64,000 bases of DNA from Bacteroidaceae bacterium (lineage in GTDB: Bacteria; Bacteroidota; Bacteroidia; Bacteroidales; Bacteroidaceae): the NCBI GenBank assembly GCA_017534535.1, contig JAFXVZ010000019.1, forward strand, positions 1-64,000, written 5' to 3'. Positions within the stretch are counted from its first letter, which is position 1. Every line of letters starts with the position of its first letter. A model generated the notes under the pieces. It ran no database searches and had not been told where the DNA came from. It saw only the letters and a list, made by a program, of their open reading frames with translations. This document shows, one piece after another, positions 15,038 through 33,196 of the stretch. The position numbers and the translations under genes were made by a program.

Positions 15038-15082
15038 GACTCATAATCTGGAGGTCCCAGGTTCAAGCCCTGGCTGGTCCAC
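15038..15082 (+). other. Attachment site: 3' fragment of a CAT-anticodon tRNA (junction of elements A and B)
   Basis: The sequence has the anticodon loop CTCATAA, the variable region, a T-arm (CCAGG-TTCAAGC-CCTGG) and the 3' acceptor strand CTGGTCC plus A. The D-arm and the matching 5' acceptor strand (GGACCAG) are absent upstream, so this is a fragment, not a gene. It matches 37908-37952 except in the T-stem. It marks the boundary between tandem elements. Confidence 0.85.
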
Positions 15083-15087
15083 GCTGA

Positions 15088-15127
15088 AAATCAGCAACTT
15101 AGAAGAAATTCGAGTTGCTGATTTTTT
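15088..15127 (+). terminator. tRNA-type terminator carried by element B
   Basis: AAATCAGCAACT (15088-15099) pairs with AGTTGCTGATTT (15113-15124), followed by more T residues. It lies directly after the tRNA fragment, so the element probably supplies both a new tRNA 3' end and its terminator on integration. Confidence 0.75.
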
Positions 15128-15132
15128 ATTTT

Positions 15133-15158
15133 GCGAAAACAATGCGAAAACAATCGGT
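15133..15158 (+). repeat. Left terminal repeat of element B (integrase arm site)
   Basis: Two tandem GCGAAAACAAT units followed by CGGT. The identical 26-base block occurs in the same orientation at 37773-37798 near the other end of the element. Both copies lie within about 110 bases of an attachment site, as expected for arm-type integrase binding sites. Confidence 0.7.
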
Positions 15159-15227
15159 TTGAGTTCGACACCATTTTAAGCAAGTTTTTGCAATCTCATG
15201 AGACTGCGAAAACATTTTTTGTCATAA

Positions 15228-17543
15228 CTATGTATGATTATTGACCGTTTCCCAGAATTTAAAAAGTGGAGAGGACTTGTTTTCCTCAGCTTTGAAAATT
15301 TCAGAAATGTCATAATGATTCAATGCCCATGCTCTTGACGATCGCTGCTGTGTGTTCTTATTATGTACCTCAGTTATGATACCATATTCCGTCATTAGTG
15401 GAATTATCTCTTCGACCAATGTCTTGTATGGCATAGAGTAATACTCTTGATCATCCCTGAAATTTTCCTCATATTGATGAGAAGATTTAATGAACTTATT
15501 CAAAAACCTCCGTACTAATTTTCTGAATTCCGAGTGTTTATTTATAGTTATTGTTGTAGCCTCACTATTCTTATGGATATGATGAATACCATATTTAATT
15601 AAAAAAGCATCAATATTTGCAGGTGAATACTCAGAATAACCATCATCGTTATCATCATCAACTTTTGTAACCTTATTAATAATCGAGCTTTCATCAATAC
15701 TTACATTACTGAAAGAGTTTGGTTTTTTTGTGTTGATTCTTATATCCGAGAAAGTGCATTTCTCAAATGAAATATCCGCAAGCTTAGTGTTACTAAAACT
15801 AATATTTATGAAATTACAATCGCGAAAAACAATACTGCTCAGTATTCGATTCTCAAATATAATACTAGAAAATGTAATATTATCGGCAAGGATAATATTT
15901 CCCGTATTGGTACAATTGTCTAATAAATATGGAAGTAGAATACCTAAATTCGATTGTAAATACGACGGACGCCACTCAGTGGATTTCATTTTTAAAAGAG
16001 AAGAAACCATATTGTTCTTGTCTATATAATCAACCATCTTTGTCAAATAACGTGCAACGGACTCTTGCATTTGTGACAGATACAAGAACGATTTTAGCCT
16101 GTCGAATCTTTGTGTTTTACAAGATTCTTTCAATATATGTGAAAGATAACATGCTATAAAATAATCTTTAAACTCCTCATGATCAAATCGTCTGAAGTTG
16201 TCTCCATTTTCAGAAATGACCAAAAAAGCATGAGATTCGACTATTCGTAATATTTGTGGCCTCAATTGAGTCTCTACATTCCATGTTTCCATCAAAATTG
16301 TTACAATATATTGAATAGTTTCCACAGAAATATAATCCTTCTGGGAGTGCCACATTTCCTGAGCTATCTCTGTTAAAAGTTCAACATGTTGTTCAAAGGT
16401 CAAATATGGTTTACCTGTATGCTTATCAAAATAAGTCCATTTTTGAACCTCCCTACGAATAAACGCTTCTATAATTTTATTAATGCTATCAAATTGACTT
16501 CCACCAGAAACAAGGAACTCCGATGGAGTTATTATCGGTTCACTTTTGGCTGCATAATTTACTAGTTTGGTGAAAAGGAAGGGGCGCTCGATTACAGGAT
16601 GGCTTTCTGTATCACGTAACATTGAAGCCATTTTGTCAAATTCTTTGTCTGCTACATCCTTGTCATAAAAATATGTAAGATATTGGACACATTGCTCTTT
16701 TTTCCAGTTATGTAATTTAATCTCGTTAAACTCACATGCTTGTCCAATATTTCCTTGTAACAGTTTGGACCTTTTCAGATAATCTTGGGTGTTAAAGAAT
16801 GTTCTCCTTGAAGCAGCAATTATGGTGCCCTGTCCATCTAATTCTGCAACCAAATTTGTTAAAGAGCCCAATACTTTCTCGCCGCCAATTTCTGCTGCAA
16901 GTTCATCAAAGCCATCTATTGCTAATACAATTAATCCGTTTCGAATTAAAGTAATAATTGAATTATAATAAAGTCCTGACAATCTTAGTACACCGATTTC
17001 ATACATCATTGCCTCGTTAAGTCTAAGCAAATCACGCCCATGCAGATCAATATGCCACAATATATGATTTGATTGGCTCTTCTGGTATAAAAGGGCATTT
17101 ACATATTGCATATGTCTTAAAAGAACTGTTTTCCCATGACCAGCATCTGCAGTTACGAAACAAATACGTGTATCAAAATTATTATTATTGATACATTCTT
17201 CATTCAACAATTTCTCTGCTCCACCATCGTATCTCTTAGCATTATGAAAAACTGTTGCTTGGGCATCAACATAAATTCTTTCATCTTCATTAGCGTATTT
17301 TTGTACAATTTTGGAGGCCATTATATCCAAATGCGCCAATTCCTTCGCAAGAAAAGTTCTATACGGATATCGTGAATTGTTGTAGATGATGAATACCGCA
17401 TCATCTATGGTTTCTATTTGAACTGAAATAATCTGATTTAGTCGTTCAAACGTTATCTTGTTTGATTCAATCACAACATCCTCTTCATCATCTGCAAATG
17501 TGAGGATTTCTTGAATGTACTGATTAAGAAGTGACTTTCTCAT
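15228..17543 (-). CDS. NACHT-type STAND NTPase with pentapeptide-like repeats
   Basis: The protein has 771 residues. A short N-terminal domain (1-120) has no recognised fold. A NACHT NTPase follows, with Walker A ADAGHGKT (132-139) and the NACHT-style Walker B LAIDGFDEL (207-215). The winged-helix signature FDHEEFKDYFIACYL lies downstream. A stretch of pentapeptide-like repeats (NITFSSIIFENRILSSIVF and following) and a C-terminal, possibly winged-helix, domain complete it. STAND NTPases in bacteria commonly sense phage products and trigger an effector. No nuclease or membrane effector is visible in this chain, and the gene overlaps the NYN nuclease gene by 4 bases (ATGA), so the partner is the likely effector. 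Both genes are more A/T-rich than the BREX genes; 15541-15600 has 15 G/C of 60. Confidence 0.8.
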   Translation of the reverse strand: MRKSLLNQYIQEILTFADDEEDVVIESNKITFERLNQIISVQIETIDDAVFIIYNNSRYPYRTFLAKELAHLDIMASKIVQKYANEDERIYVDAQATVFHNAKRYDGGAEKLLNEECINNNNFDTRICFVTADAGHGKTVLLRHMQYVNALLYQKSQSNHILWHIDLHGRDLLRLNEAMMYEIGVLRLSGLYYNSIITLIRNGLIVLAIDGFDELAAEIGGEKVLGSLTNLVAELDGQGTIIAASRRTFFNTQDYLKRSKLLQGNIGQACEFNEIKLHNWKKEQCVQYLTYFYDKDVADKEFDKMASMLRDTESHPVIERPFLFTKLVNYAAKSEPIITPSEFLVSGGSQFDSINKIIEAFIRREVQKWTYFDKHTGKPYLTFEQHVELLTEIAQEMWHSQKDYISVETIQYIVTILMETWNVETQLRPQILRIVESHAFLVISENGDNFRRFDHEEFKDYFIACYLSHILKESCKTQRFDRLKSFLYLSQMQESVARYLTKMVDYIDKNNMVSSLLKMKSTEWRPSYLQSNLGILLPYLLDNCTNTGNIILADNITFSSIIFENRILSSIVFRDCNFINISFSNTKLADISFEKCTFSDIRINTKKPNSFSNVSIDESSIINKVTKVDDDNDDGYSEYSPANIDAFLIKYGIHHIHKNSEATTITINKHSEFRKLVRRFLNKFIKSSHQYEENFRDDQEYYSMPYKTLVEEIIPLMTEYGIITEVHNKNTQQRSSRAWALNHYDISEIFKAEENKSSPLFKFWETVNNHT

Positions 17544-18283
17544 ATTAGTGTTTTGACTTTAGCGTTACAATTGGATAAAATATTTGAATATAGTGGTTCT
17601 TGCAAACCATTTTTCATGAGAAGCGTTATTTCCTTGTCTACATTACGAACTTTACTTATTGCTATACAAGGAAAAAGGTCAACATCATCACTAGCTATGT
17701 ATATAGCTTTTACTGTTGGCTCTGAACTATAAGTTATAACATCGCATGTCATCATTGTGTCAACCATCTTTTGCTCTTTCCTGTATAATATTTCTTGATG
17801 TTTTGTTGTACAACCGATATTATTACACAGCCGTTCTTTATTCTTAATGAATTTTTGCAAAATCCGAACAGGGCATAGTCCAGAATTTGAAGAACAGGTT
17901 AGGCTTTCTTTTGAATGATCAATAAGAACTTTTTGAAGTCCGGCCTTTTTCTGAAATGTATTATACCATACGAAATCCAGTCCAAATTGTTGTTCTGCAA
18001 TAACAATACTTCCATCTATTTTTCCAGAATTTATGATTATTGGGAAGATATTTATTTGTTGTAAATATGTAGCAAGCAGTGATGCCTTTTGAGTATATAC
18101 ATATTCTTGATACCAGCCACCATATAGTCTAATACAGATATTATTTGTATCGTTATGCTCATTAAATATCACATTAATGATTTTTGTGAAAAACGATTCA
18201 AGGTCTTGAATTGTATAATTTTGCAACTGCCCAGGAAAATAGTTATCAAAATCCACTATCACAACTACTTCTTTATCACTCAT
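17540..18283 (-). CDS. NYN-domain (PIN-like) nuclease
   Basis: The protein has 247 residues. VVVIVDFDNYF (D11, D13, N14) is the first NYN motif. KMVDTMMTCD (D175, D181) and IYIASDDVDLFP (D199, D200, D202) complete the acidic cluster of a PIN-like, metal-dependent RNase. An insertion between them (about 110-170) has four cysteines (C130, C137, C153, C158) that could bind zinc. All acidic positions expected for activity are present. It starts 39 bases after brxL ends and overlaps the NACHT gene by ATGA, so the two are translationally coupled. RNase activity is inferred from the family; the target is unknown. Confidence 0.8.
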   Translation of the reverse strand: MSDKEVVVIVDFDNYFPGQLQNYTIQDLESFFTKIINVIFNEHNDTNNICIRLYGGWYQEYVYTQKASLLATYLQQINIFPIIINSGKIDGSIVIAEQQFGLDFVWYNTFQKKAGLQKVLIDHSKESLTCSSNSGLCPVRILQKFIKNKERLCNNIGCTTKHQEILYRKEQKMVDTMMTCDVITYSSEPTVKAIYIASDDVDLFPCIAISKVRNVDKEITLLMKNGLQEPLYSNILSNCNAKVKTLI

Positions 18284-18322
18284 ATTGTTATCTTCATTTA
18301 TCTGTGATAAACTATGAATCGT

Positions 18323-20356
18323 CTAAATCATCTTCTGTATCAACATTTGAGTATTCGCATAGAAGGGAATGTCAGTCTTGCCAAGGATAGTTGCTGGAAG
18401 TGTTGCCATTTCTGTAAGATTATCCATCGGGACAAGTACATTCTTTGCACCATTCTCAGATAACATTGATACACGGTCATTGAAGTTTAGAGCACGTTCA
18501 ATAGCACCTCCAATGCTAATATTGCCGATGACGCCAAGGCCTGATTTCAGATTTCGTCCGAACACAGAAGATACAATAGCCGCGAATACCGCACCACCAA
18601 TTCCCTTATGAACACCAACGCCCAACAACACAGTCACTTGAACTGTTACGTCAAGGTGCATCAACGAGTGCTTTTGAGACAGTATAGCCCTTTCATTGGC
18701 TCGAATATAGTTGTATGTATTCTTTATATCCTCTTTGGCTTCTGTGGAGCTGCTACCAGTCACTGTAAGTCTGCCGTTGCCAGGCATAGTAATGACCTCA
18801 ATTTTTACGAGAGATACCTTGTCGCTGTCACTTGTTGCCGTGTAACAAGTGCCTGGTTGAAGTGGAGCATCCTCAATCAGATTGGTACCTCGTTCCTCTG
18901 GCACGGACACGAAATGTTCTTCCTGGGTTTCTTTGTCTATGTAAGAGAAGTTGGTGTCCCAGAACTCCATGCCACCTATACGTTTTAACTGTTCTTTAAC
19001 ACGACGACGCATTTCAATAGCCCATACCAGATACTTGCGGACATCCTCTTTTGTAAACTCACCATCAGGATGCATCAATTTAATAAGACCTGAGACTGTC
19101 TTGCGCACAGGTTTAGTATCACGTTGTTTCATCTGCGCACCAAGCGTGAAATACTTATCAATGGCATCTGTGTAGGTCATCTTCCGTTGAGAATGTAGAA
19201 ACTCGCTGAAGAAGTCTGTACTGAAGCCAAAATGATTGGTAAAATTGGATGGTGCAAATTTCATTACTTCCCAACCTGGCAGGAAGAAACCGATACGATC
19301 CAAAAAGGCTGTATCATTGCATATCTTATCTGAGAATGGCGAGAAAAGATGTGATGTCTGAAGAACGGTCTCAACTGGCTGGTTAATATTACCATTCAGC
19401 ACAATGGAGGCATTAGCAGCTTTTTCGCCGGCTTTTCCTGCACGTGAGAAACTACCACTTTCCATATAGTCTTTCATCAAAGGAACCACCTCTTTGTCTT
19501 TGAACAATTCATCTGTAGATTCATCGAAACAAATAGCATCCCATCTGCCTACGGCACCTATCTGTCCACTGGAGTTATTAACGAAGAGTGATGCTGCCGT
19601 ACCTTGTCCACCACTCACAAGCATTGAGTATGGCGAAAGTTCCTTGAATACAAAAGATTTTCCGGAAGAGCGAGGTCCGAGCTCTGCCATGTTGAAATTC
19701 GCTTCAACTAATGGTATGAAGCGCGAAAGCAACAGCATCTTCATTCTTTCGGTCATGCCTTCTGACTCTGGCTCATAACCGCCACTACGTAATAGGACGT
19801 TGAGCCATTCTTCGTTGGAGAATATGCCACGTGCTCTCGCAATCCGATCTTCTTCAAAGTTGGATAGCTGAATTGGGCGTACCTTGCTGATGACGAAAGG
19901 AAATATCTTTTTCCCTATCATCTGTGTTGAATCATAGTCAATATCGATAATTGCCCAGATACCGCCAGTCATCATTTTCTCATGCTGACTGATTATCTCT
20001 TCCGAGATATTGGCATCACGAATAGCAAGGTTTGAAAGCTCTGCCCAATACTTGTCTTTGGAAGGGTCAAGACGTACGCTTATCTTATCTATGATTTTGT
20101 ATGTACCTTGTTCACGTATCTTGGCTTGAACAAGAGTAGCTTCATCAGGATTGACGTAGTGGTCATGAAGAACGCGCTTCACGTTTTCTATACCTTCCTG
20201 AATCTTTTCCTCATCATCGGTACTGCATGAATTGGCAAGTAAATATTCCAGCACAAAAACAGGGACATTCGCTCCTCCTTTTACAGAACGTACAACGTCC
20301 TTACGAACTACATAGCCCTTGAACTGGTCTAATAATTTTGAATCAAGTTCTATCAT
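18323..20356 (-). CDS. brxL: BREX protein BrxL (AAA+ with Lon-like domain)
   Basis: The 677-residue AAA+ protein is diagnostic of type 1 BREX. Walker A is GPRSSGKS (227-234) and Walker B is DAICFDES (273-280). The C-terminal 150 residues have a Lon-protease-like fold signature (HKGIGGAVFAAIVSSVFGR, then IGNISIGGAIERALNF). The Ser of the canonical Lon motif (DGPSAG) is not seen; GIGGAV stands there, so peptidase activity is doubtful. BrxL acts in phage restriction. It is the last canonical BREX gene, 21 bases after pglZ. Confidence 0.93.
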   Translation of the reverse strand: MIELDSKLLDQFKGYVVRKDVVRSVKGGANVPVFVLEYLLANSCSTDDEEKIQEGIENVKRVLHDHYVNPDEATLVQAKIREQGTYKIIDKISVRLDPSKDKYWAELSNLAIRDANISEEIISQHEKMMTGGIWAIIDIDYDSTQMIGKKIFPFVISKVRPIQLSNFEEDRIARARGIFSNEEWLNVLLRSGGYEPESEGMTERMKMLLLSRFIPLVEANFNMAELGPRSSGKSFVFKELSPYSMLVSGGQGTAASLFVNNSSGQIGAVGRWDAICFDESTDELFKDKEVVPLMKDYMESGSFSRAGKAGEKAANASIVLNGNINQPVETVLQTSHLFSPFSDKICNDTAFLDRIGFFLPGWEVMKFAPSNFTNHFGFSTDFFSEFLHSQRKMTYTDAIDKYFTLGAQMKQRDTKPVRKTVSGLIKLMHPDGEFTKEDVRKYLVWAIEMRRRVKEQLKRIGGMEFWDTNFSYIDKETQEEHFVSVPEERGTNLIEDAPLQPGTCYTATSDSDKVSLVKIEVITMPGNGRLTVTGSSSTEAKEDIKNTYNYIRANERAILSQKHSLMHLDVTVQVTVLLGVGVHKGIGGAVFAAIVSSVFGRNLKSGLGVIGNISIGGAIERALNFNDRVSMLSENGAKNVLVPMDNLTEMATLPATILGKTDIPFYANTQMLIQKMI

Positions 20357-20377
20357 AATTTTGGTTATCTTTAATCG

Positions 20378-22579
20378 TTAAAACAAGTCATCAATGTCTC
20401 TTGACAAAGACCTACTGATTTCGCAACTGTCTATCTGTGCAGAAGTTTCCTTATCTATAAGGACAACTTTGTCTATGCCATTTGACATTTCAAACTCCAC
20501 ATTGATAGTTTCGCCTGGCTTCATGGAATAAATCATATTTCCTATGACCATCTTGTTTCCTGCATAAAGGAGCAATTTAATTTTTCTCTCACTGCGGAAC
20601 AAATCCGATTCACACCCCTCTGCAAGTAGTTTCACTGTAAAGTAATTGCCGGTTACTGCTTTCAGCTCCTTCTTATTAGAAATCATCACCCCAAGAGCCA
20701 TATCATTTGAATCGATGTTCAACTCGTAGGCTGGTATAATGCACTCTTGTGGTGTGAATCCACCATGAGCATAACCATACGCACCTTTAGTAACGAATGG
20801 TTTATCAGTCTTAGCATAATATTGGTAGTTGCTGTCGAAATAACGTCCCGTTCTCTCTATTAAGTTTGGTGCATTCAACGGTTCTTCCGTTAAGACATAT
20901 CGTTCATCCAACTTAAGCAGAGTTCCATCTGGACGTGGCTCTTTGTCAGCCTCGTCTAAGATACCTGTAAGTACAAAACCGTGGTCGGTAGTAAGAACTA
21001 TCTTGCGGTAGCCAAGACGGAATAGCATCGCTATCTTTTCCCTCAACTCCTGTTCATAGTTGTTGATGTCCTTCAATCCATTCAACTGTTTCTTTTCGCC
21101 AACTTGATCAATATCACCATAGTTCAGCACAAGATGCTGAGCAGTAGTTCCTTCATTTAGCATATCAAGCGGCATTATGACCACATCCCCACAAACAGCT
21201 TTCAGAGAGTTGAATCTGGCTTGGGCATTCACTGTCGGTTCCGAGCATCCAAACAATGCACTCATTCCGTTCTCCGTAACCGATGGCAACACTGCGAATG
21301 CAGTGTTCCGCTCGATTTTCACGTTCTTGTCAGTGATACCACCCACAATGGCTTCTGCTATCTCTAAGCGCAAACCGTCACACACAATAATGGCGGTTCG
21401 TTTATCATCTGAAAGAGCCTTTACCACAAGACCTTTCTGTGTTGGTTCATACTTGCCTTTTATCCCATACCAACAGGTCAGCAACTCATTATTTAAAATG
21501 GTATAGTGCTCCTGTAAAGGACGAAGAGTATCTTGATCATTCAACCAAGCAACGAATATCTTTCGCATGGCTGTGTCAAGTTTGGCAAAGTGCTGTGAAT
21601 AATACTTTGCTATATCCTCATAACTGGTTATGCTATTCAGGCCTTTTATGGCAAAAGTGCTGAGCAGCAAGACACTTTCCAACCACTCTGGCTTAAATGC
21701 TTTCGCCTTCCTGCTTTTTGTCCGCTGTTTGATGAAATCAACGATAGTCGATGTTTCATTATGGAACTTCATAGCATTACTAAGCAGTTTCAACACTCGT
21801 TGATCGAACAATAAGAAAGGATGATCCTGATGCACCTTCAATGGATCTATGTCATCCGGAAGAGCATAGTTATCTACATACTTACGTAACGTTTCTGCTT
21901 TCTCTGTGCTATCTGCCCACTGATAATACACTTCCAACAATAATCCCTCTATGGAGTTGTCTATCAGTCTTTCCAGAATGACATTCACCACTTCCTGTGC
22001 CATTGTCTCAGCAGATTGGTCCGTCTGTGGTTTATCAATCAGTCGATAGACTTCACCTCGGAACACATTCCATACAGTGCCATCCATCTTCAGCCGTGTA
22101 GATGCTGGTGCATGGAGAAAATTGAGTAGCCAATCTTCGAGTTTCAATGGTTCTGTGATGCCATCTGCTACAGACTGCCACCAGTTCTTATTCTTGCCCT
22201 CACTTAGTTTTGCGGCAAGTAGAAGCCGGTCTTTGGTCAGATTGGTGTTTTTACCTGTAGCTTCAAACAGTTTCTGCTTGATGTACGCCTCCATGTCGTC
22301 AAGCACCAACAATCCTCCTGTTTGTACGTATTCCTGCAAAAAGGTTAACTGTATAGCCTTTTTCCTGGCATAGAAGAGTACAGAAGTATCTGCAAACTTC
22401 GACTCTGCAAGATATTTTGCCTCTATCTCACTGTACTCATTGCTGATGGGTAACTGTTTGATATCTTCTGGAAGATATTTCAGAAGAAACTCACCTTCAC
22501 CATTGGCATCTGTCACCACCAAATAGCGATGTTCTCTCAGGATGCGTCCTATGTCTTCATTAAACCAAAATCCTATCAT
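20378..22579 (-). CDS. pglZ: BREX protein PglZ
   Basis: The 733-residue PglZ contains an alkaline-phosphatase-superfamily core. IIVCDGLRLEIAEAI has the metal Asp, FAVLPSVTENGMSALF the nucleophile region, VLTTDHGFV the Asp-His pair, and YGYAHGGFTPQECIIP the final metal His. The N-terminal 330 residues are a helical region typical of the family. PglZ is the defining BREX protein and acts with PglX in host modification and phage exclusion. It starts 83 bases after the Schlafen-AlbA gene and is followed by brxL after 21 bases. All expected metal-ligand motifs are visible. Confidence 0.95.
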   Translation of the reverse strand: MIGFWFNEDIGRILREHRYLVVTDANGEGEFLLKYLPEDIKQLPISNEYSEIEAKYLAESKFADTSVLFYARKKAIQLTFLQEYVQTGGLLVLDDMEAYIKQKLFEATGKNTNLTKDRLLLAAKLSEGKNKNWWQSVADGITEPLKLEDWLLNFLHAPASTRLKMDGTVWNVFRGEVYRLIDKPQTDQSAETMAQEVVNVILERLIDNSIEGLLLEVYYQWADSTEKAETLRKYVDNYALPDDIDPLKVHQDHPFLLFDQRVLKLLSNAMKFHNETSTIVDFIKQRTKSRKAKAFKPEWLESVLLLSTFAIKGLNSITSYEDIAKYYSQHFAKLDTAMRKIFVAWLNDQDTLRPLQEHYTILNNELLTCWYGIKGKYEPTQKGLVVKALSDDKRTAIIVCDGLRLEIAEAIVGGITDKNVKIERNTAFAVLPSVTENGMSALFGCSEPTVNAQARFNSLKAVCGDVVIMPLDMLNEGTTAQHLVLNYGDIDQVGEKKQLNGLKDINNYEQELREKIAMLFRLGYRKIVLTTDHGFVLTGILDEADKEPRPDGTLLKLDERYVLTEEPLNAPNLIERTGRYFDSNYQYYAKTDKPFVTKGAYGYAHGGFTPQECIIPAYELNIDSNDMALGVMISNKKELKAVTGNYFTVKLLAEGCESDLFRSERKIKLLLYAGNKMVIGNMIYSMKPGETINVEFEMSNGIDKVVLIDKETSAQIDSCEISRSLSRDIDDLF

Positions 22580-22662
22580 ATCTAACGATGTCTTGTGATA
22601 ATTCTATTTTCCTTTCTATTTTCCAAAATTGGTTTTCGACGCATTTTTGTGGAAAATAGAAA

Positions 22663-24315
22663 TTAAAGAAGCTTCTCTGTAATTTGATATTTTTGCCATC
22701 TATTCTTTCCGATTTTTTGAACAGTTCCATTTGTAACAAGCTTTTGTAACTGGTTCCATATCTTTTTTGATGGAATCTCCTCTCCAATTCTTTTTTGTAT
22801 TTCTGCCAGAGAGGCTATCTTGTATATCTTCAAATCTTCAAGAATCAATTCCTTCAAACGATAATCCTCAATTCTTTTCAAAGAAGTTTTTCCTTTATAT
22901 TCGCTTCCCCTAAGAATATTAGGATTGACTCTGTATTCCTTGGCTTTTGAACGGTCATCTGTTGAAACGACAATATCCTTGTCAATTAACAAACGTAACC
23001 AAGAGCGGAGTGCATCTGCATCTTTCAAGTTAAGAATCTTTATCAATTCAGATGCAGTGAGACTTTCATGCAATGCAATCAGCCCCAGACAGATGAGCTG
23101 TTTTTGCTTTACGTCATATCGTTGGTCTGCATGTTGCATAACCTTAATAACCTCTTCATTGATGATGCGACGATCAACCCGCACCGAAACGCTGTCGTCA
23201 CCTTCTGTTACTACCGGGATGGGCTTTCCATTTGCCAATAGCGTTTCGTACATCATGTCGTAGCCTGAACCTTCGCGCTCCATCAAGTGCAGGGCGTAGA
23301 AAACTGCTGCCATGTGCTCATTCCTCTTTTTTGTAGTATGCAGGATATTCTTCACCGTTACGCCCAATGGCAATCGACCTGGATTAACTACATCAATATG
23401 GTCAGGATGAATGTTGATGAAGATGTCACCTCTGACCGTATAGGGTCTGTGTACCAGGGCGTTGGATAGTAACTCTCGGACAACCTTCTCCGGATAGGCA
23501 AGAATGTTACGCCTGAACATGCCCTCCGTGATTTCGGAACTTTCTTTCCATTCAGGGATTCTTTCCCACACGTCGCTTATCATTTCATATGGGTTCATCA
23601 TATAGTCATCCCACAGCCATTTGTTCACCTTTTCCCCTTCTTGGTCGTACTTGATACACTGAATGACTGGAGCGTTCTGTATTCTGCCTCTTTGTGTCTG
23701 CTTACCGATAAAGAGTACACCAAGGTTAGTCATCTTGTCTGAGTCCGGATCTGTAAGATAATAGAAGTCCAATACTTCCTTTGTTTCCTTCTGCTTAACA
23801 AAACTCGACACGCGGTCTGACTTCTTAAGTAGCTTGATAAACGCAGACAGCTTTTCTGGGTCTGCATCCTCCCAGCTATACTTTGTCTCGGTATCTTCCC
23901 AACTGATACATCCTTTATCTTCTGCCAAGCGAGAAATATCCTCAGGACCAACAGGAACACTGTTGTCACCTACACGGAGGAAGAACTTGCCCGATGTGGT
24001 TGCCGATGGTGAGTTGGCATTCCTTAGTACATGCAGTCTGATGTACTCTCCACCGTTTTCTGCAATCTGAGTTTCTGCAGAAAGGACTACGCCTTGTGTT
24101 TTACCAGTCACCTTGTTTACGATTTCTGTAGCAAGACCATCTGGTATCTTTTGTTCTTTTGGTGGTAAAGTTTGGTTATCTTCGATACCTATGTCTATGC
24201 TGCCACCTTCAGCGTTGCTGAATGCCACGCAGTCTTTAGCTAATTCATTGAAGTCTGCGTTCTTGCCCCACACCGTACGGAGCGATTTCTTGTCGTATAT
24301 GCTGTTTTCTTTCAT
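22663..24315 (-). CDS. Schlafen AlbA_2 / HATPase-like regulator (COG2865)
   Basis: The protein has 550 residues. The N-terminal region (about 10-110) is an AlbA_2/Schlafen divergent AAA domain (DFNELAKDCVAFSNAEGGSI, then DIGIEDN). The middle (about 270-385) matches HATPase_c_4 (VVRELLSNALVHRPYTVRGD and INIHPDHIDVVNPGRLP, then EREGSGYDMMYE). The C-terminal 150 residues are winged-helix-like. Such COG2865 proteins are called ATP-binding putative regulators or helicase-related. Here it is inserted between pglX and pglZ in the canonical BREX order, 12 bases after pglX. A BREX accessory or regulatory role is inferred from position only. Confidence 0.85.
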   Translation of the reverse strand: MKENSIYDKKSLRTVWGKNADFNELAKDCVAFSNAEGGSIDIGIEDNQTLPPKEQKIPDGLATEIVNKVTGKTQGVVLSAETQIAENGGEYIRLHVLRNANSPSATTSGKFFLRVGDNSVPVGPEDISRLAEDKGCISWEDTETKYSWEDADPEKLSAFIKLLKKSDRVSSFVKQKETKEVLDFYYLTDPDSDKMTNLGVLFIGKQTQRGRIQNAPVIQCIKYDQEGEKVNKWLWDDYMMNPYEMISDVWERIPEWKESSEITEGMFRRNILAYPEKVVRELLSNALVHRPYTVRGDIFINIHPDHIDVVNPGRLPLGVTVKNILHTTKKRNEHMAAVFYALHLMEREGSGYDMMYETLLANGKPIPVVTEGDDSVSVRVDRRIINEEVIKVMQHADQRYDVKQKQLICLGLIALHESLTASELIKILNLKDADALRSWLRLLIDKDIVVSTDDRSKAKEYRVNPNILRGSEYKGKTSLKRIEDYRLKELILEDLKIYKIASLAEIQKRIGEEIPSKKIWNQLQKLVTNGTVQKIGKNRWQKYQITEKLL

Positions 24316-24327
24316 CTTTCTTCTTAT

Positions 24328-27300
24328 TTACCAATCTGCATTCAAATATTTTTTCAGCTGCCCGGCATTGAGCACCTCGTAGCTGAGCATCTTTCGCTTC
24401 TGTAGTGGAGCAATATTCTTGCCAACACCGTCATCGAGTTTCGGGTCATAGCCGCTGGCAAGCAGGTCATCTACCTTTTGACAGAATTCTTGCAACTCTG
24501 TCAGCATGGCTCGCAGTTCGTTTGCTTCAAGTCTGCCTTCGGTGTTGCTGGTGTCAATGGAGTTTAGGCGGTCACGGATAGCCGCTTCGCGATTGGCAGC
24601 ATAGATACTGCGCACACGGAACAGCGCATCACGATTCCATTTATAGATGCTGATGTATAATTCTATGGCATGATGCTCGCCACTGGTCAGATGCCAAATG
24701 AACGGAGTCTTGGGCAGATACATGAAGAGGTTCAGATGGTCGCTGAGTTGTTGGAAGAATCGCTCTTGCAGGTATTTCTCCAACGGACAGCCCAACAGGT
24801 TGCATACCTGAGCAAACTGTGCCGCAGTGTAGCCACGCTCCATCATCTCACGCTCTATGCGGATTGCTAAGCGCTCTTCACCCACTTTGTCACCAAGTGG
24901 GATGATTCCGTCATCATCCTTTGCCAATACAGTACGGATAACATCTGTTAAAAGTTCAAAGATAATGATTTGCGTTCGTTGAGAAGGATTTATATTAGAA
25001 CCTTTGAACTGATACCATAACTCAATCGGGCTTATAGAATGGAGAATACAAAACTCTTCCCAACCCTTGTTGTTTTGATAAAGAGAATCAAAGTCATCAA
25101 TAGACTCCTGCTGTTCTTCTGTTCCCAAATTATTTATAAATTCCAATAATCGTTCAGATGGTTTATATACAGTTTGTTGTTGTAGCCATTGCATATAAGC
25201 ATTCTTGGCCTTTTCCGAAGGAGAAAGCAAACCAACGGGTATTCCTTCTTTATCAAAAACCATCTTCTGATCTTTTTCATTTAAGTCGTAAATAGAAAAA
25301 ATAAGAAGGTTTATCAAAGCCTCGTTCAACAGTATATGAGTATTAAGAGCATTCTCATACACATAATAATCTGTTATTGAATTAGGTACAGTTTTCTCTC
25401 TTGATATTGGGGACGAAACAAACTCTTTTTCTATTAAAGAGAATGTGTTTATCTTTTCTTTTATATGGATATTACATTTCGCTAAATCAGTTATTATTTG
25501 CTCATTTTCCGCATCAGGTTTTACAAATGGTACACGCTGAATATCTCCAACTTGTGTATTAACAGTTGGATTTAGGCTATTGGCAAGATAGAAACACGTC
25601 TTTGTATTTAAAAATGCCAATATATAGTAACGGTTAGAGTATTTTCCTGTGGGGAAAATACAAGAACCACCTACGTCAAATAAACAATCCTTTGGGAAAA
25701 TTCGGAATGATGTACCCTTTTCGCCACTACTACCTGAATATGTGATGCCTTCCTTAAAATAGTACTGTTTGTTTTGGAGTCGACCTTTCTTTTCAATATA
25801 CTTTTTCGCCGAATCACTCCAGTCAACATATAACCATAGATTGCCATACCATTTATTGTAATCACCGCCTTTTGAATATGGGTAGTAAGTTCTTGTTGAG
25901 CCTAATACTTCCCACCAAAAACGGCAAAATCTATTATTATTACTTGTCGCAATTCCCTGCTTTACATCTACAATGTCACTGAGAGATAAATCTGTGAATT
26001 TCTCTCTGAATTCATCCGAAATCCAAAATATAATTGGCATTGATTTGATTTTTTCTAACTTTTTTTGCTCCAAATAATACACGCGATTATTTGGAAGATT
26101 TAGACACACATCGTCTAATGCTTTTAATAATGAGTCTTTCTTAAACTTTTCTTGTTGACCAACCGTAATGTGGAAATAAACACCATCTTCGTGTTCATTA
26201 TATATGGATTTGTCAAATGTATAAAAAGCAGCATTTAAAAGAATTCCCGGGCCAAATAAATTCACACGATCGAGTCCATAATCTACAAGAACATTAATAT
26301 GGGTCTTCTTAACCAAGAACTCTCTAACATCCTCAAAAGTTTTGATATACATAAAAGTATGAGGATGTATTATTCCTACCTTACCATCATCAGCGGATAG
26401 CTCATAACAGCGTTTAATAAAACACGAATATAGATTACCTGAAAATTTATAAGGTTTTTTATAGTTACCTTCTATGAAAGTTTTAAGTTCTGGCCCAAAG
26501 TCGGCACTATCTGTATATGGTGGATTAGCTACAACAACGTCATAGTTATGGGAGATAATATCAAGGAAAGAAATGGCATCATTGGTCTTGGACAATGTAT
26601 AAGCATTACTTCCTTGTCCTCCCCATTTATTTACATTATTTCGAAGTTGAGTAATGACATTGTTCTTGTAATCAAAGAGGCTCTCCATTTCGAACTCTTT
26701 GAATAAAGAATGGTTTGTGTCATTAGGCATCATCTCGTTCAGACGTTCCTCTACACGCACAAGTGAGCCAAACTTATATGCGGAACACAAATCATTCCAT
26801 ATATTTTCAATGGCTTGAATTTGCTTATTTGACCATGAGCCAAGAATCTCAAAAGTTCCTTGCAATTCTTCATATTCTGGAAGGAAGAAATGGGTGCTTA
26901 CCACATTGGTATATTCTGGCCAATGACTGCGATGACCGCCAAGCACACGCGCTTTTATGAAAAGGGCTATCTGCGAAATCTGGGCAGCACGTTCATCCAA
27001 ATCAACACCAAAAAGGTTGTTCTCCACAATCATCTTTGGAATATCCCGACGGCTGTAGTCACGTTCGTAGTTCTCCATTTGATCTATGTAAAGGTCATAG
27101 AACAACGAGAAAGCGTAAATCAGGAAGTTGCCCGAACCACAAGCAGGATCGAGCAGGCGCATCTGCCTGATGTCTTTCGGATGTCGCACTTGTTCTTTAG
27201 GTGCATTGGCAATCTGATATTTCTCCTTGATACGGCTATCTGGGAACATTTCCAGATATGCCTTGCCAAGCGTGTTGTCAACCAAGAACTTTACCACCCA

Positions 27301-27978
27301 CTGCGGTGTATATACCTGACTCTGGAGAGAAACCTTGTTATATTCTGTCTTCTCGCCACTCTGCTTTAACACCTCTTTCTCCACAGTATTGAAATTCTCG
27401 TATAGCCAACCAAGGATGTCATCACCTCGCCATACATCTGCTCCACAGTCAGCATCCTCTTCCACTGCATTGAATTGTTCGATGATTTCATTCAGTTCAT
27501 CGGCTGTTGGCATCAGTGCGTATGGGTAGTCTTTACGATAAAGCGGGATGTGTTCTCCCAATTTATCGAATTGGTCGGTGAGGAAATGCTTCAATCCTTC
27601 ACGCTCAGCATTACGTTCCTCTGGATGTTCCTCCAACCATGCATTGTGCTCAAACGAACGTCCAGCATTCTCTTTCCGTCGGGTAATGATTTCTGGAAAA
27701 AGTTCCTTCGATTCCATTACCTTGATGGCAGCTATACGGTTGAAGAGCGTAAAGACACACTCATTGATAGCAGCTTGACGAGCCTCTGTATAGCCCCCCA
27801 ACTCGCTTAGATGGCTCTGCATGATGTCGTCCAACTGGCGACGCCGTGGCTGTTGGTCTGCCGACAATTGTTCTGCTGGTACAGGTTCCGATGCACGAAG
27901 TCCCATGCGTGAGAAACGGTTGTCAAATGCCTGTTGTATAAGGCGGCGTATGTCGAGAACGTGATTGATAAGTTTCAT
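24328..27978 (-). CDS. pglX: BREX adenine-specific methyltransferase PglX
   Basis: The 1216-residue protein has a SAM-binding DPACGSGNF motif (277-285) and catalytic NPPY (485-488), as in N6-adenine methyltransferases, with the PglX N-terminal helical domain. PglX methylates a short non-palindromic site to mark host DNA; phage lacking the mark is blocked. Length is normal and I see no frameshift. The start overlaps the brxC stop by one base (TAATG). The region around 25,000-26,600, coding the central target-recognition part, is visibly more A/T-rich than the two ends (19 of 60 G/C at 25381-25440 against 33 of 60 at 24421-24480). Confidence 0.95.
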   Translation of the reverse strand: MKLINHVLDIRRLIQQAFDNRFSRMGLRASEPVPAEQLSADQQPRRRQLDDIMQSHLSELGGYTEARQAAINECVFTLFNRIAAIKVMESKELFPEIITRRKENAGRSFEHNAWLEEHPEERNAEREGLKHFLTDQFDKLGEHIPLYRKDYPYALMPTADELNEIIEQFNAVEEDADCGADVWRGDDILGWLYENFNTVEKEVLKQSGEKTEYNKVSLQSQVYTPQWVVKFLVDNTLGKAYLEMFPDSRIKEKYQIANAPKEQVRHPKDIRQMRLLDPACGSGNFLIYAFSLFYDLYIDQMENYERDYSRRDIPKMIVENNLFGVDLDERAAQISQIALFIKARVLGGHRSHWPEYTNVVSTHFFLPEYEELQGTFEILGSWSNKQIQAIENIWNDLCSAYKFGSLVRVEERLNEMMPNDTNHSLFKEFEMESLFDYKNNVITQLRNNVNKWGGQGSNAYTLSKTNDAISFLDIISHNYDVVVANPPYTDSADFGPELKTFIEGNYKKPYKFSGNLYSCFIKRCYELSADDGKVGIIHPHTFMYIKTFEDVREFLVKKTHINVLVDYGLDRVNLFGPGILLNAAFYTFDKSIYNEHEDGVYFHITVGQQEKFKKDSLLKALDDVCLNLPNNRVYYLEQKKLEKIKSMPIIFWISDEFREKFTDLSLSDIVDVKQGIATSNNNRFCRFWWEVLGSTRTYYPYSKGGDYNKWYGNLWLYVDWSDSAKKYIEKKGRLQNKQYYFKEGITYSGSSGEKGTSFRIFPKDCLFDVGGSCIFPTGKYSNRYYILAFLNTKTCFYLANSLNPTVNTQVGDIQRVPFVKPDAENEQIITDLAKCNIHIKEKINTFSLIEKEFVSSPISREKTVPNSITDYYVYENALNTHILLNEALINLLIFSIYDLNEKDQKMVFDKEGIPVGLLSPSEKAKNAYMQWLQQQTVYKPSERLLEFINNLGTEEQQESIDDFDSLYQNNKGWEEFCILHSISPIELWYQFKGSNINPSQRTQIIIFELLTDVIRTVLAKDDDGIIPLGDKVGEERLAIRIEREMMERGYTAAQFAQVCNLLGCPLEKYLQERFFQQLSDHLNLFMYLPKTPFIWHLTSGEHHAIELYISIYKWNRDALFRVRSIYAANREAAIRDRLNSIDTSNTEGRLEANELRAMLTELQEFCQKVDDLLASGYDPKLDDGVGKNIAPLQKRKMLSYEVLNAGQLKKYLNADW

Positions 27979-30900
27979 TATTCGTCGAATTTAAGAATGT
28001 CATTTATATCAAATTGGTTGACCATAGCCAACTGCTGCTTCAACCACTGCTTATATTCGGCAACGCTAAGCTGACCCGTCGGCAACTGGCTACGCAGCTT
28101 GCGCTCCTTGGGCTGTGGCTTCGGTTGTGGCTGTGGGTTGGGTGTGCTAGGATTGGGCTGTGGCTGAGGTTGTGGTTGCGGAGTTGAATCTGTGGTACAG
28201 ATTTCCGTTTCCATTACATCCACATCCACAAGCAACTGAGGCAACATGTTTATTGCACTAACGATGTCGCGAAGCTGAAGATGACATCTGGAGCATCGAA
28301 TCTCGTAGTCCTTCAATTGGATTTTTGAAATGATGTATTTTTTGCATACCTCTTCCTTTTCCCTAATCTTGGAAAAGAGGCGTGTATTCCACTCTTTCGG
28401 GTACTTGTCTGCTTCGTTCTTGACCGCTTCCATGCGGTTGAGTAGGTCGCCATAGCCGTTAAGCATCTGTTCTGCCTGCTGCTCCATATTCTGGCAGTAG
28501 AGATCCTTGACCTTCTGGTACTCCTGTTTCATCTGCTGATAGTTGCGAACAGGGTCGCTGTCAAGCATCTGGAAATAGGCTTCATGTATCTGGTCGAATG
28601 TCTGCATTGGCGAAGCCACAAACTCTAGTTCATTCTTCACATCATTGAAGTATTCCTTCTGATATTCAATCTCACGCATGTTGGTGTCGATGAAGCGAAT
28701 GTCAGCTTCAATCTTCTCAACAGCCTTGCAAAACTCTTCGTTCTCGTTGTCGCCGAGGAACGTTCTAGCAGTATTGAAGTAATTATACTCCGTGACAGTT
28801 CCAGCATACTGGCGAAGTACATCCTTGGCCGCAAGAGAACGACGGAAGATACGCTCACGCTCATCATCGTTACAAATCCTGTCGTTGACTTTATGAATCT
28901 CAGTAACAGCGAGTGACTGGATGGCGGCAACAAGCTCAAAGTCGTTCATGTTGTAACTGAGGTTGCCGCCAGTCAGCTCCTTATATCGACAATCTTTCAA
29001 CGTATCAACAATATCACGTTTCTCGTTGTAGGAAAGACTCTTGGTGATGGCTTTGAACGAAGCTCGCTGAAAGTTGCGGCTGTTGGCAAACGGTTCCTTT
29101 GCGCCATCCTGTTGCCAAGAATGGTATTCCTGATTGTTGTACTTGATGATGACCTTACTTGCACGGAACAAAGCGGCCAAGGTGGAGAAAACCGTACCAA
29201 AGTTATATCCAGTAGGAGCTGCAGCGAGATCTCGTTCAAGGTCGGCACCATTCTTGTAAGCAGCAGTCTGAGCCATAATCTCTGTAATAACAGGCAACTG
29301 GTCTCCAATAAACTGACCGCTGGTATCGAAGAACAGAAAATCAGGGAGTTGCCCGATGACATTCTGAAGCTGGTTCTGGTTTACTTTCAATAGTTGAAGC
29401 GCAATGCTGTCTTTCAAATACCCGCCCAGACGCTTGGTATAGATATTGCCGTACATCTTCAGTTCAGCCTCTTTGATGAGCGTAGCGGCATTCTGAGTTG
29501 TCAAAATACTGGTGTTGTAAAGATAGACGAGCACACCACTCGTATATGACTTAATGACGGCCTGTTCAAGTTGTACCGTTTTAGCCTCCAAGGAACTTGC
29601 AATCTCATCTACCACTTTCTTTTCTTCAGGTGTGAGGTTCGGCACCTCCTTGATGTAGTTGATGCGCAAGATGCTTTCAACTATCGTTTGTATCTCTGAG
29701 GCATAATCAGCGGAAGGAATAATGCTGATAACGTTTTTCTGGGATTGTGTATCTTCCTTGATGCGATCAACATACTCATTCAGCGATGGCTTTACGCTGA
29801 GAATGTCATGGAAAACAACCTTCATCCCTTGGTCACCACCTGTGGAGAATGTTTCACCACTATCTGATTGCACGGAGAAACCGATGTTCATGCCATCAAC
29901 GGTTATGTTCTGCGCTCCACGGACAAGTGCCATCTGTTTAACCTGTTTGGTAATCTCACCTTTAATACGATATGAGGCAATGCCATCATAGTTGTTCATC
30001 ATCTCAAAGATGCGCTGCTGCGTTTCGCTGGTGATTCGATACTCATCACCCGAAAGGATTAGAATCTCGTCATCTGCCAGTTTCTTACATGCTTTCTTCA
30101 CTTCATCGAGAACCGTGAAATAATCGTCAGGACAGTTCACGTACGCACGGCTGATATTCTCGACTGTTGTCTTTGCTCCAGATTCAGTTAGGAAATGGAT
30201 GGTTTGAAGCATATCATGACCGACGACAAAGCGTAGGTTCATTCCTTTCAGATGTTCATCTGCCTGATCGTAACGAATGCGCAGCGACTCAGCCACAGCT
30301 TCCTCCGCCTGGCGACAAAGCTGTGAGGCATTGACATGGATGGGGAGATCTCTGTCTGAAAGTGCCTCTTTCTTCAATACATCGAAGGCAGAAATCAGCA
30401 TACCACGGGTACCGACCTGCGTCTTGACCAGTTTCTGTGTTCCAAACAGGAAGTATTGGAGCATCTTGAACTGATGTTCGTAGAAGGGATAGTAGTCTGC
30501 GTATGTCTTCGCATCTGTGGTCTTATTGAGACCTGTTCCGATAATATTGGTAATATCGGAAATCTGCCCACTCTTCTTTTTGTAATAATCCTGCAAAAGT
30601 TCGTCACCTTCTGCTGTCTTAGCAAGAAGTCGTTTGCGAATAATCATATCAACCTCCTCGGCAGCGATAGGAATACGCTTCTTAAAACGGTCGATAATCT
30701 TTGTCAACAAACTGCGATTCACATTCGTACCGTTAATCACATCATCAAGTTGTAGCTGTGCGATAGCGATAGTCCACACCTTACGGCCAAGAGCTGCAAT
30801 AGCCTCTGCCATACCTTCAAGGTCAAGAATGTTTATTTTTTGCTGTGCAATTGCCTCGCTCACTTCGTCTATCATAAAGACGATTCGGATGTCTGGATTC

Positions 30901-31628
30901 TTTTCAAGATAGCGATTCAAGTCATCTTGAAGTTTTGTTGCATCATAGTCCTGAATACGCAATTTTGCAGCATCGCTCATCTCGTCGTAAGCACGCTGAG
31001 AGCAGAAACCGTCGAGCATAGTGTCTTCCAGCGTGTCATAAACCTCATCCATGTTTTTACGACGCTGTAGCCATGATTCGCCAAATTTCTGTTGCACTTT
31101 GTCGCAGAATGCTTGGTAACGTCCACTCATCAGTAGGTTAAACTCAATGATGCCTACCCAATCGTCATTTAGATTGAGGGATTTGAGAAACGCACCCATC
31201 ATCATATAGCTGATGCCGTGATTTCCTGTCGTCTTGGCAGCATCAAACAGGACAACATGATTATTGGTGCGTCCCAATTCGTTGATGCTGTTCTGGAGAA
31301 GACCTGCATTCGGCAAACCAATGAGTTTGTTCTTGAATCGTTCACGTATAGACGTTCCCTTAATGGTAGGATTCTTCAAGAGGAAGCCTATCATTTTGGA
31401 GAAATAAGACTTACCAGAACCATAGAAGCCACTCAACCATAGGCCTGGCTGTGCGGTGTTGGAGGTAAAAAAGTCGCAAAAGTCGGCTAAATGCTTAGCC
31501 AAACTATCTGTCAAAATGAAACCATCCAACTCGTCGATGATACTCTGATCATCTTGCTGGTTGAGGTCAATCACACTCTTGATGTCATCTTCAAGACGTA
31601 TTGAAAGTATATCTTTTATCTTTGTCAT
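27978..31628 (-). CDS. brxC: BREX ATPase BrxC
   Basis: The 1216-residue large P-loop protein has Walker A GFYGSGKS (67-74) and Walker B IVFMIDE (249-255) in the N-terminal AAA domain. Long helical regions and a Pro/Gln repeat linker (PQPQPQPQ..., about residues 1145-1175) precede a short C-terminal segment. BrxC (PglY) is required for both restriction and modification in type 1 BREX. It begins 19 bases after brxB and overlaps pglX by one base. The linker repeat is an unusually regular PQ/PK tract; length is otherwise normal. Confidence 0.95.
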   Translation of the reverse strand: MTKIKDILSIRLEDDIKSVIDLNQQDDQSIIDELDGFILTDSLAKHLADFCDFFTSNTAQPGLWLSGFYGSGKSYFSKMIGFLLKNPTIKGTSIRERFKNKLIGLPNAGLLQNSINELGRTNNHVVLFDAAKTTGNHGISYMMMGAFLKSLNLNDDWVGIIEFNLLMSGRYQAFCDKVQQKFGESWLQRRKNMDEVYDTLEDTMLDGFCSQRAYDEMSDAAKLRIQDYDATKLQDDLNRYLEKNPDIRIVFMIDEVSEAIAQQKINILDLEGMAEAIAALGRKVWTIAIAQLQLDDVINGTNVNRSLLTKIIDRFKKRIPIAAEEVDMIIRKRLLAKTAEGDELLQDYYKKKSGQISDITNIIGTGLNKTTDAKTYADYYPFYEHQFKMLQYFLFGTQKLVKTQVGTRGMLISAFDVLKKEALSDRDLPIHVNASQLCRQAEEAVAESLRIRYDQADEHLKGMNLRFVVGHDMLQTIHFLTESGAKTTVENISRAYVNCPDDYFTVLDEVKKACKKLADDEILILSGDEYRITSETQQRIFEMMNNYDGIASYRIKGEITKQVKQMALVRGAQNITVDGMNIGFSVQSDSGETFSTGGDQGMKVVFHDILSVKPSLNEYVDRIKEDTQSQKNVISIIPSADYASEIQTIVESILRINYIKEVPNLTPEEKKVVDEIASSLEAKTVQLEQAVIKSYTSGVLVYLYNTSILTTQNAATLIKEAELKMYGNIYTKRLGGYLKDSIALQLLKVNQNQLQNVIGQLPDFLFFDTSGQFIGDQLPVITEIMAQTAAYKNGADLERDLAAAPTGYNFGTVFSTLAALFRASKVIIKYNNQEYHSWQQDGAKEPFANSRNFQRASFKAITKSLSYNEKRDIVDTLKDCRYKELTGGNLSYNMNDFELVAAIQSLAVTEIHKVNDRICNDDERERIFRRSLAAKDVLRQYAGTVTEYNYFNTARTFLGDNENEEFCKAVEKIEADIRFIDTNMREIEYQKEYFNDVKNELEFVASPMQTFDQIHEAYFQMLDSDPVRNYQQMKQEYQKVKDLYCQNMEQQAEQMLNGYGDLLNRMEAVKNEADKYPKEWNTRLFSKIREKEEVCKKYIISKIQLKDYEIRCSRCHLQLRDIVSAINMLPQLLVDVDVMETEICTTDSTPQPQPQPQPNPSTPNPQPQPKPQPKERKLRSQLPTGQLSVAEYKQWLKQQLAMVNQFDINDILKFDE

Positions 31629-31647
31629 AATCGTAAATTTATCAAAG

Positions 31648-32199
31648 TTATATGACTACCACACAGCGATACTTGGAGGCTGGCTGTTGATTGAGGAAAT
31701 ATATCGTCTCATTTCTTAATACCGCTGGATAGAAGAACACCAGCGGCTTCTGGAACTTCATTACATGGGGATCTTCCATGATGTTCTGGTTGGAGAACCC
31801 CATTTTATAGATAACTCCAGTATGTATTAAAATGGGGGAGACACCTTTTTCTGCAGCATTGACAATTCGTTGCATGAGGAAGCTGTAAAACGTTCCCTCT
31901 GTGTAGTTCTGGCTGACGAACACCTCTGTACCCATGTTCTTGAACTGACGCTTGAATTTATCAAGTCCCTTTGAATCGACAAATTCAACGAACAATTGGC
32001 GAAGGTCTATAAACTCATACCCATCAGTATATCTGCGTTTTGCCTCTTCTATGTACTTTTCTTCATCAACAGGAGGATATACGAATAAGATACTCCTTCC
32101 CCCATTCGCGTCAGAAGACAAATGGGCAAGGTCACGTCCCATTGCTGCAGTGAGGTCGTTGAACAGCCTGTTATGTTCTTGTATAAATGTTGATGCCAT
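31648..32199 (-). CDS. brxB: BREX protein BrxB (DUF1788)
   Basis: The 183-residue protein matches the BrxB/DUF1788 family. Visible features include GGRSILFVYPPVDEEKYI near residue 35, YEFIDLRQLFVEF, and the C-terminal HTGVIYKMGFSNQ and KPLVFFYPAVL. BrxB is a small core component of type 1 BREX with no known enzymatic activity. It starts one base after brxA ends, and brxC follows after 19 bases, so translation is probably coupled throughout. Confidence 0.92.
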   Translation of the reverse strand: MASTFIQEHNRLFNDLTAAMGRDLAHLSSDANGGRSILFVYPPVDEEKYIEEAKRRYTDGYEFIDLRQLFVEFVDSKGLDKFKRQFKNMGTEVFVSQNYTEGTFYSFLMQRIVNAAEKGVSPILIHTGVIYKMGFSNQNIMEDPHVMKFQKPLVFFYPAVLRNETIYFLNQQPASKYRCVVVI

Positions 32200-32200
32200 A

Positions 32201-32929: not shown

Positions 32930-33140
32930 GAATACGCTTAATTCTTACAAGTTCTGTATAATCAACCCTTAAGGCTTCTGCTATTTTACTTAACATATCC
33001 AAAGATGGCTGTGAGGAATTGGTACACCACTTACTTACAGTGGCAGCATTAACACCAAGTTGCTCTGCAAGCCACTTGTTTGTTCGTTTCTTCTCCGCCA
33101 ACATTACCTTAATCCGATTTAAATCTTTGTTCTCTTCCAT
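32913..33140 (-). CDS. XRE-family regulator heading the BREX operon
   Basis: The 75-residue protein from the ATG at 33140 is almost entirely a Cro/CI-type helix-turn-helix: KWLAEQLGVNAATVSKW, then CTNSSQPSLDMLSKIAEAL. The longer in-frame start at 33182 would cover the promoter, so the shorter one is preferred. Many BREX loci are controlled by a WYL-domain regulator (BrxR); here a bare XRE protein takes the first place and overlaps brxA by 17 bases. Autoregulation of the operon is likely but inferred. Confidence 0.85.
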   Translation of the reverse strand: MEENKDLNRIKVMLAEKKRTNKWLAEQLGVNAATVSKWCTNSSQPSLDMLSKIAEALRVDYTELVRIKRIHGEEE

Positions 33141-33160
33141 CGTATATAGTTTTAATGCTA

Positions 33161-33196
33161 CAAAGATACAAAAACTTTTCACATAGACCCCAACAA
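33161..33196 (-). promoter_or_regulatory. Predicted BREX operon promoter
   Basis: On the minus strand TATCTTTG (33161-33168) is a perfect Bacteroidetes -7 box. A TTG-type -33 element (33191-33193) lies 22 bases upstream. It is 20 bases ahead of the regulator ATG, and no other promoter is evident before the end of the NACHT gene. Confidence 0.65.

Follow-up and report, generated by a model that had tools for sequence, protein, structure and literature searches.

A putative uncatalogued immune module of bacteria: a recurrent NYN-NACHT gene pair next to a BREX operon

The DNA analyzed here (hereafter, the window: the whole stretch of 64,000 nucleotides, positions 1 to 64,000 of the forward strand of contig JAFXVZ010000019.1, assembly GCA_017534535.1, from a Bacteroidaceae bacterium) carries, immediately downstream of a BREX operon, two adjoining genes encoding a NYN-domain protein and a NACHT/STAND-type NTPase. 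The same two genes are found together in bacteria that are not related to one another, and the pair has the appearance of an immune module that is not yet catalogued. Judging by its sequence features, it is probably a self-contained, horizontally moving two-gene defense module of the NLR (STAND/NACHT) type, in which the effector is a separate protein. Such an interpretation is suggested by the constant pairing of the two genes, the conservation of catalytic and nucleotide-binding residues, a scattered occurrence in low-G+C segments, and the presence of known defense genes nearby at 3 of the 10 loci. The features of the pair are as follows:

17540..18283, minus strand: NYN-domain protein, 247 amino acids, predicted metal-dependent RNase effector (open reading frame)
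17810..17896, minus strand: four-cysteine module CX6C-X15-CX4C of the NYN protein, residues 130-158 (CX4-6C...CX4C in 10/10 homologues; C137, C153 and C158 invariant)
17678..17773, minus strand: NYN catalytic block QKMVD...D181...D200,D202, residues 171-202 (Q171, K172, V174, D175, D181, D200 and D202 invariant in 10/10)
15228..17543, minus strand: NACHT/STAND-type NTPase, 771 amino acids (open reading frame; remote Pfam matches)
17127..17153, minus strand: Walker A motif TADAGHGKT of the NTPase, residues 131-139 (A134, G135, G137, K138 and T139 invariant in 10/10)
16902..16931, minus strand: Walker B motif with DGFDE at 210-214, residues 205-214 (D210 and G211 invariant in 10/10)
16170..16187, minus strand: winged-helix motif FDHEEF, residues 453-458 (F453, H455 and F458 invariant in 10/10)
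15639..15908, minus strand: pentapeptide-repeat-like beta-helix, residues about 546-635
15273..15539, minus strand: possible C-terminal winged helix, residues about 669-757

Results

Co-occurrence of the NYN and NTPase genes

In the window, the pair begins 39 bases past the brxL stop codon on the minus strand, and its two genes share an ATGA overlap, which suggests translational coupling. The initial annotation of the window had described these reading frames, the overlap and the distance to brxL, in agreement with the list of open reading frames and the sequence itself. Its remark that the pair is more A/T-rich than the BREX genes also holds (G+C of 0.313 and 0.336 vs. 0.376-0.450 for the BREX genes, with 15 G/C among the 60 positions 15541-15600, as counted by eye).

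Ten distinct pairs were found including that of the window, the others being in Maribacter, Rhodanobacter and seven further genomes, always with the NYN gene first and with a spacing of -11 to +11 nucleotides. Searching genome contigs with the window NYN protein yielded three loci: two contigs of one Maribacter metagenome-assembled genome, which represent the same pair, and a locus in Rhodanobacter sp. FW104-R8. In both organisms the NTPase gene comes directly after the NYN gene. By BLASTP, the window proteins are 38% (NYN) and 39% (NTPase) identical to those of Maribacter, and 25% and 23% identical, respectively, to those of Rhodanobacter. A three-protein NYN profile matched 7 of the 395 genomes of the window's phylum, in six of which (the window's and five others) the NTPase gene follows directly. 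The seventh, weak match (G384, E 7.5e-4) was rejected as a pair: the protein is of the generic NYN type (Pfam NYN E 1.5e-8), and the gene downstream belongs to the amidohydrolase family. An eight-row NYN profile applied to 398 genomes of the phylum of Rhodanobacter gave 32 matches at E <= 0.001; three of them are near full length (E <= 1.8e-49, including the Rhodanobacter genome), each with the NTPase gene next to it downstream, while the other 29 span 45-68 residues. Altogether, each of the ten NYN homologues at E <= 9.4e-15, drawn from diverged lineages, has the NTPase gene downstream within 11 nucleotides.

The reverse search, using an NTPase profile against the same 395 genomes (E <= 1e-10, at most two scored candidates per genome among the rows listed), converged on the loci of the NYN search. 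Of the eight genomes that it matched, six are those with a pair, and the other two are G391 and G537. G391 holds an eleventh pair cut by the contig end, where the 196 bases left upstream of the NTPase match code for the last part of a NYN homologue (64.7 bits); the match in G537 is a remnant considered below. No NTPase lacking a NYN gene was found in these genomes among the matches having enough upstream sequence. The module is rare and scattered in the genomes sampled: among 369 genomes of the class of Rhodanobacter the NTPase occurs only in the Rhodanobacter genome, and among 148 relatives of the window the NYN gene occurs only in the window's own genome. The proposal that the two proteins belong together thus came through a search for homologues located elsewhere: with ten pairs in the same order and conserved sites in both proteins, the two genes are one heritable module.

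Conserved sites of the two proteins

Residues invariant across the ten NYN proteins include M1, D11, N14, R52, Y54-G55-G56-W57, P81, A96 and T109 in the first half, and C137, C153, C158, Q171, K172, V174, D175, D181, D200, D202 and P205 in the second. The family displays the NYN/PIN-like fold with the conserved acidic residues expected of NYN RNases. Among the six active-site aspartates initially proposed, D11, D175, D181 and D202 are indeed invariant and D13 is kept in nine of the ten proteins; D199 is found in only two, its place as an invariant residue being taken by D200. Likewise, three of the four proposed cysteines align throughout, and C130 does not, even though the spacing pattern itself recurs in all ten proteins. 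This four-cysteine module is probably a zinc ribbon.

The domains assigned in the initial annotation (NYN, NACHT and pentapeptide-like) are correct, though they rest on remote similarity, with all Pfam matches of the window proteins under cut-off; homologues were used to test them for this reason. Pfam NACHT was matched at E <= 0.01 by three of eight NTPase members (best 1.6e-8), and nSTAND_NTPase5 by four of the eight. The hallmark of NACHT/STAND proteins is a Walker A motif combined with a Walker B motif in which a small residue follows the Asp, and with an acidic pair. The family has this bacterial NACHT/STAND arrangement, including [DE]-[DE] at positions 213-214 in 10/10 NTPases. The Walker A, Walker B and FDHEEF motifs pointed out earlier are all present, their key residues invariant in the ten homologues, as is R246.

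Mean pairwise identity between the NTPases is 42% over residues 119-275, 38% over 276-400 and 31% over 401-470, vs. 18-24% in the four stretches into which 471-771 was divided and 24.5% over residues 1-118. The drift of the C-terminal half, with the core held, would fit a sensor role. The N-terminal segment of about 118 residues is present in all ten proteins, diverged and matching no effector family; in the window NTPase, residues 1-118 match no Pfam family at E <= 1, with no fold search made of that segment alone.

Genomic neighbors and base composition

Known defense genes adjoin the pair at three loci: the window (BREX), G314, where a DruE-like helicase ends 200 bases upstream of the pair, and G161, where type I restriction-modification specificity and restriction subunits flank an OLD-type ATPase/TOPRIM protein near the pair, itself preceded by a 184-amino-acid open reading frame of no family. 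In G314 (L023, 1469-9267), a 959-amino-acid protein with no match in either Pfam or PADLOC stands directly before the DruE-like helicase, perhaps as part of a diverged Druantia locus.

At the remaining loci, the scanned neighbors are a sulfotransferase and adenylosuccinate synthetase (G286), a short-chain dehydrogenase and a Na/Pi cotransporter (G362), OstA/ABC and release-factor genes (G415), a transposase downstream, with an upstream reading frame of the same kind by eye (G581), and a polyketide synthase upstream (G594). On the Maribacter contig no other open reading frame of at least 60 amino acids is listed beside the pair. The G+C content of the pair is below that of both flanks at all nine loci measured (Maribacter excluded; the right flank of Rhodanobacter amounts to 109 bases), the difference from the left-hand flank being 4 to 17 points.

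Discussion

Proposed mechanism

The most likely mechanism, as read from sequence, would be an NTP-dependent, sensor-triggered activation of a trans-acting NYN RNase. The NTPase has the anatomy of an NLR-like receptor without a recognizable killing domain, and a separate nuclease always adjoins it. We infer sensing, complex formation, RNA as the target and abortive infection along the following lines. At rest, the NTPase would be closed and bound to ADP. The C-terminal half, which is variable and comprises a helical region, the pentapeptide beta-helix and a possible winged helix, may sense phage or plasmid invasion, upon which ATP exchange and oligomerization via the NACHT and winged-helix parts would take place. 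The N-terminal segment of about 118 residues could then recruit the NYN protein or unlock it, and cleavage of RNA (tRNA or mRNA) by that protein would halt the cell or the invader.

Several observations weigh against assigning the pair to NLR-type defense. The Pfam NYN match of the window protein (residues 153-220, E 3.5e-4, 21.5 bits) is below the cut-off of 24.2, as is the NACHT match of the NTPase (E 0.0073, 16.6 bits vs. 26.7); two further models, nSTAND_NTPase5 (E 0.0032) and pentapeptide (best E 6.5e-6), are likewise under cut-off. Structure models of both proteins have low confidence (pLDDT 60.5 and 62.3), and Foldseek alone gave no match for the NYN model at E <= 0.001. The G161 protein has F in place of D13. 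In G362 (L021, 9731-11979) the NTPase frame is interrupted near the C-terminus (667 amino acids plus a 75-amino-acid piece), and G537 (L073, 1-620) retains a broken remnant of the NTPase C-terminus, which lies about 200 bases from the start of a contig and is surrounded by stops in all frames; both may reflect decay or assembly error. The NTPase N-terminus is as variable as the C-terminal parts, so variability alone is no mark of a sensor. Finally, no defense gene was recognized beside the pair at 7 of the 10 loci, with neighbors partly scanned at five of them and the other two being Maribacter (no neighbors on the contig) and Rhodanobacter (neighbors outside the family scans).

Alternative interpretations

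An unlikely alternative is a toxin-antitoxin-like arrangement, with the NYN protein as a constitutively active RNase toxin restrained by the NTPase until the latter is lost or inactivated upon infection. PIN-fold RNases are common toxins, and the order of the genes (NYN first), their tight spacing and the fact that they were never seen apart, wherever this could be decided, would all suit such a scheme. The partner is, by comparison, unlike a small antitoxin of the kind that marks type II systems: with 752-771 amino acids (667 in the interrupted copy), it has an NTPase core with conserved Walker A and B motifs, R246 and a winged-helix His. Moreover, for DS-5, a two-gene PIN system described earlier, both genes were required, and a toxin-antitoxin nature was considered unlikely (PMC13092281).

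Somewhat less probable still is a non-defense role, in which the NYN protein would act as a (flap-type) DNA nuclease or an RNA-processing enzyme regulated by the NTPase. In favor of such a role are the relatedness of the PIN and FEN folds, a DNA-binding winged helix that the NTPase may, tentatively, carry, and the seven loci without a recognized defense neighbor. The sporadic distribution (in the window's own genome alone among the 148 relatives), the low G+C content and the defense neighbors at three loci argue against it.

A functional link to BREX, with the pair as a backup effector wired to the window's BREX operon, appears very unlikely. The operon, which lies outside the module, is as follows:

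18323..32929, minus strand: BREX type 1 operon brxA-brxB-brxC-pglX-AlbA_2/HATPase-pglZ-brxL (Pfam, PADLOC, NCBIfam)

Such a link would be in line with the 39-base gap on the same strand, and with the nuclease backup effectors known beside BREX cores, which in the accessible part of PMC12839542 comprise HEPN, PIN and Schlafen RNases. It is at odds with the lower G+C content of the pair and with its distribution. When the seven window BREX proteins were used as tblastn queries, neither the cut G391 locus nor any of the nine pair loci other than the window gave a match at E <= 1e-3, in flanks ranging from 228-466 bases (Maribacter, too short to tell) up to 16 kb; the same queries do recover BREX genes at related brxL loci. 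Besides the window, eight relatives have BrxL at E <= 4.3e-40, six of which were examined (G108, G111, G101, G136, G005 and G032; G104 and G058 were left out), and none of the six fetched stretches contains a NYN or NTPase profile match at E <= 0.01. G108 has BrxL in pieces on two contigs (62 and 67% identity). Here, the first reading frame called downstream of brxL on its strand (L102, 6999-7895) belongs to the AbiH family and is followed by a helix-turn-helix (HTH) gene and a BrxA-like gene; hence, additional genes of other kinds can occupy the site downstream of brxL. The initial description of the pair as appended to the BREX operon is not upheld in the sense of membership, since BREX is found at 1 of 10 pair loci and the pair at 0 of 6 related brxL loci: a conserved association is lacking, and that in the window is incidental. 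Within the BREX operon itself, we noted an AlbA_2 (Schlafen-like) + HATPase_c_4 protein (22663-24315) that resembles the Schlafen/minimal histidine kinase backup effectors reported beside BREX (accessible part of PMC12839542), and, preceding brxA in the same orientation, a small HTH-like protein of 89 amino acids (32913-33182), by eye possibly a BREX regulator.

That the two genes are chance neighbors is effectively refuted by the ten-out-of-ten pairing in diverged lineages, and nothing was found in its favor.

Relation to known systems

Each of the elements has known counterparts: defense by NACHT proteins against phages, RNases of the NYN type and two-gene systems of an ATPase and a nuclease. 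The combination of a four-cysteine NYN protein with a pentapeptide-bearing NTPase has no name in the resources searched. No system name was obtained for the window proteins from Pfam, NCBIfam or PADLOC-DB. In PADLOC-DB (2023), the window NYN protein has no match and the window NTPase matches mad8 (E 0.017); eight NTPases taken together gave no system and one match to a RecD model (E 0.0012), and the one further NYN protein scanned, that of G314, matches HEC-09 weakly (E 5.6e-4, 17.6 bits). A NYN-NACHT pair is likewise unnamed in the literature searched; in PMC12839542 'NACHT' is absent from the main text, and BREX and NYN are not both present as whole words. Within these resources, which did not extend to newer defense catalogues, the initial impression that the pair is not a named system has been borne out.

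Bacterial antiphage NACHT proteins, as presented in the accessible part of PMC12169576, have their effector in the same chain, with clade 14 lacking a readily discernible one. Our NTPase resembles them (e.g., bNACHT25 and the effector-less clade 14) in having a central NACHT/STAND NTPase and a putative C-terminal sensor, and differs from that description by a separate upstream NYN protein as the likely effector and by a pentapeptide-like C-terminus. PARIS, whose OLD-ABC ATPase switches on a nuclease that cuts tRNA, and other OLD-ABC dyads, including those with PIN RNases, share the logic of an ATPase sensor with a separate nuclease effector and the occurrence with BREX (accessible part of PMC12839542), but here the ATPase is STAND/NACHT-like rather than OLD-ABC and the nuclease is NYN rather than TOPRIM. 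DS-5, found by DefensePredictor, is also a two-gene PIN RNase defense needing both genes, but its partner protein has DUF5830 and an AcrIF4-like domain, with no NACHT mentioned in the accessible part of PMC13092281. The likeness to HalA of Hailong is confined to the pentapeptide-like stretch of the NTPase (NCBIfam E 2.3e-8, 33.6 bits vs. a cut-off of 250; PDB 9nyi, E 3.6e-4); no other common stretch was reported, and the NTPase is far below the HalA family cut-off. In comparison with other NYN ribonucleases (MARF1, CRISPR-associated NYN), the window family is distinguished by the inserted four-cysteine module and the constant NTPase partner, and the window protein also by a Pfam NYN match below cut-off.

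A constant partner nuclease shows one way in which effector-less NACHT receptors may act and puts NYN RNases forward as a class of candidate effectors in STAND immunity; the presence of the cassette beside three different restriction-type systems bears on the question of layered defense. As a bolder and distinctly tentative extension, the pairs might represent a hitherto undescribed family of split bacterial NLRs that combine pentapeptide/winged-helix sensing of infection with a zinc-ribbon NYN RNase acting in trans, in parallel to eukaryotic antiviral NYN proteins, and that move as a plug-in cassette into BREX, Druantia and restriction-modification islands, where they would back up these systems upon their failure.

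Island and mobility

In the window, the pair is located at the left end of an island:

15040..37952, no strand: integrated island of 22.9 kb bounded by two tRNA-Met 3'-end copies (att copies, end repeats, recombinase)

The two tRNA-Met 3'-end copies (15040-15082 and 37910-37952) enclose the BREX operon and the pair, and an intact tRNA-Met is present on contig C6 (L074, 1488-1562). A single island of this size also fits with the repeat inside each of its ends (at 15133 and 37773) and with the tyrosine recombinase that it contains (36212-37624). An integrase at 13336-14838 falls outside, and another end repeat, at 14903, is also found beside the intact tRNA-Met; it would fit a probable second island in tandem at tRNA-Met. 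Further signs of tandem islands are the different end repeats and the two tyrosine recombinases, and contigs C6 and C31 may adjoin. To the left of the island (6240-13257) we observed a Mob_Pre relaxase-like protein and a YhcG/DUF1016 nuclease, and to the right (41274-41804) a Vsr endonuclease.
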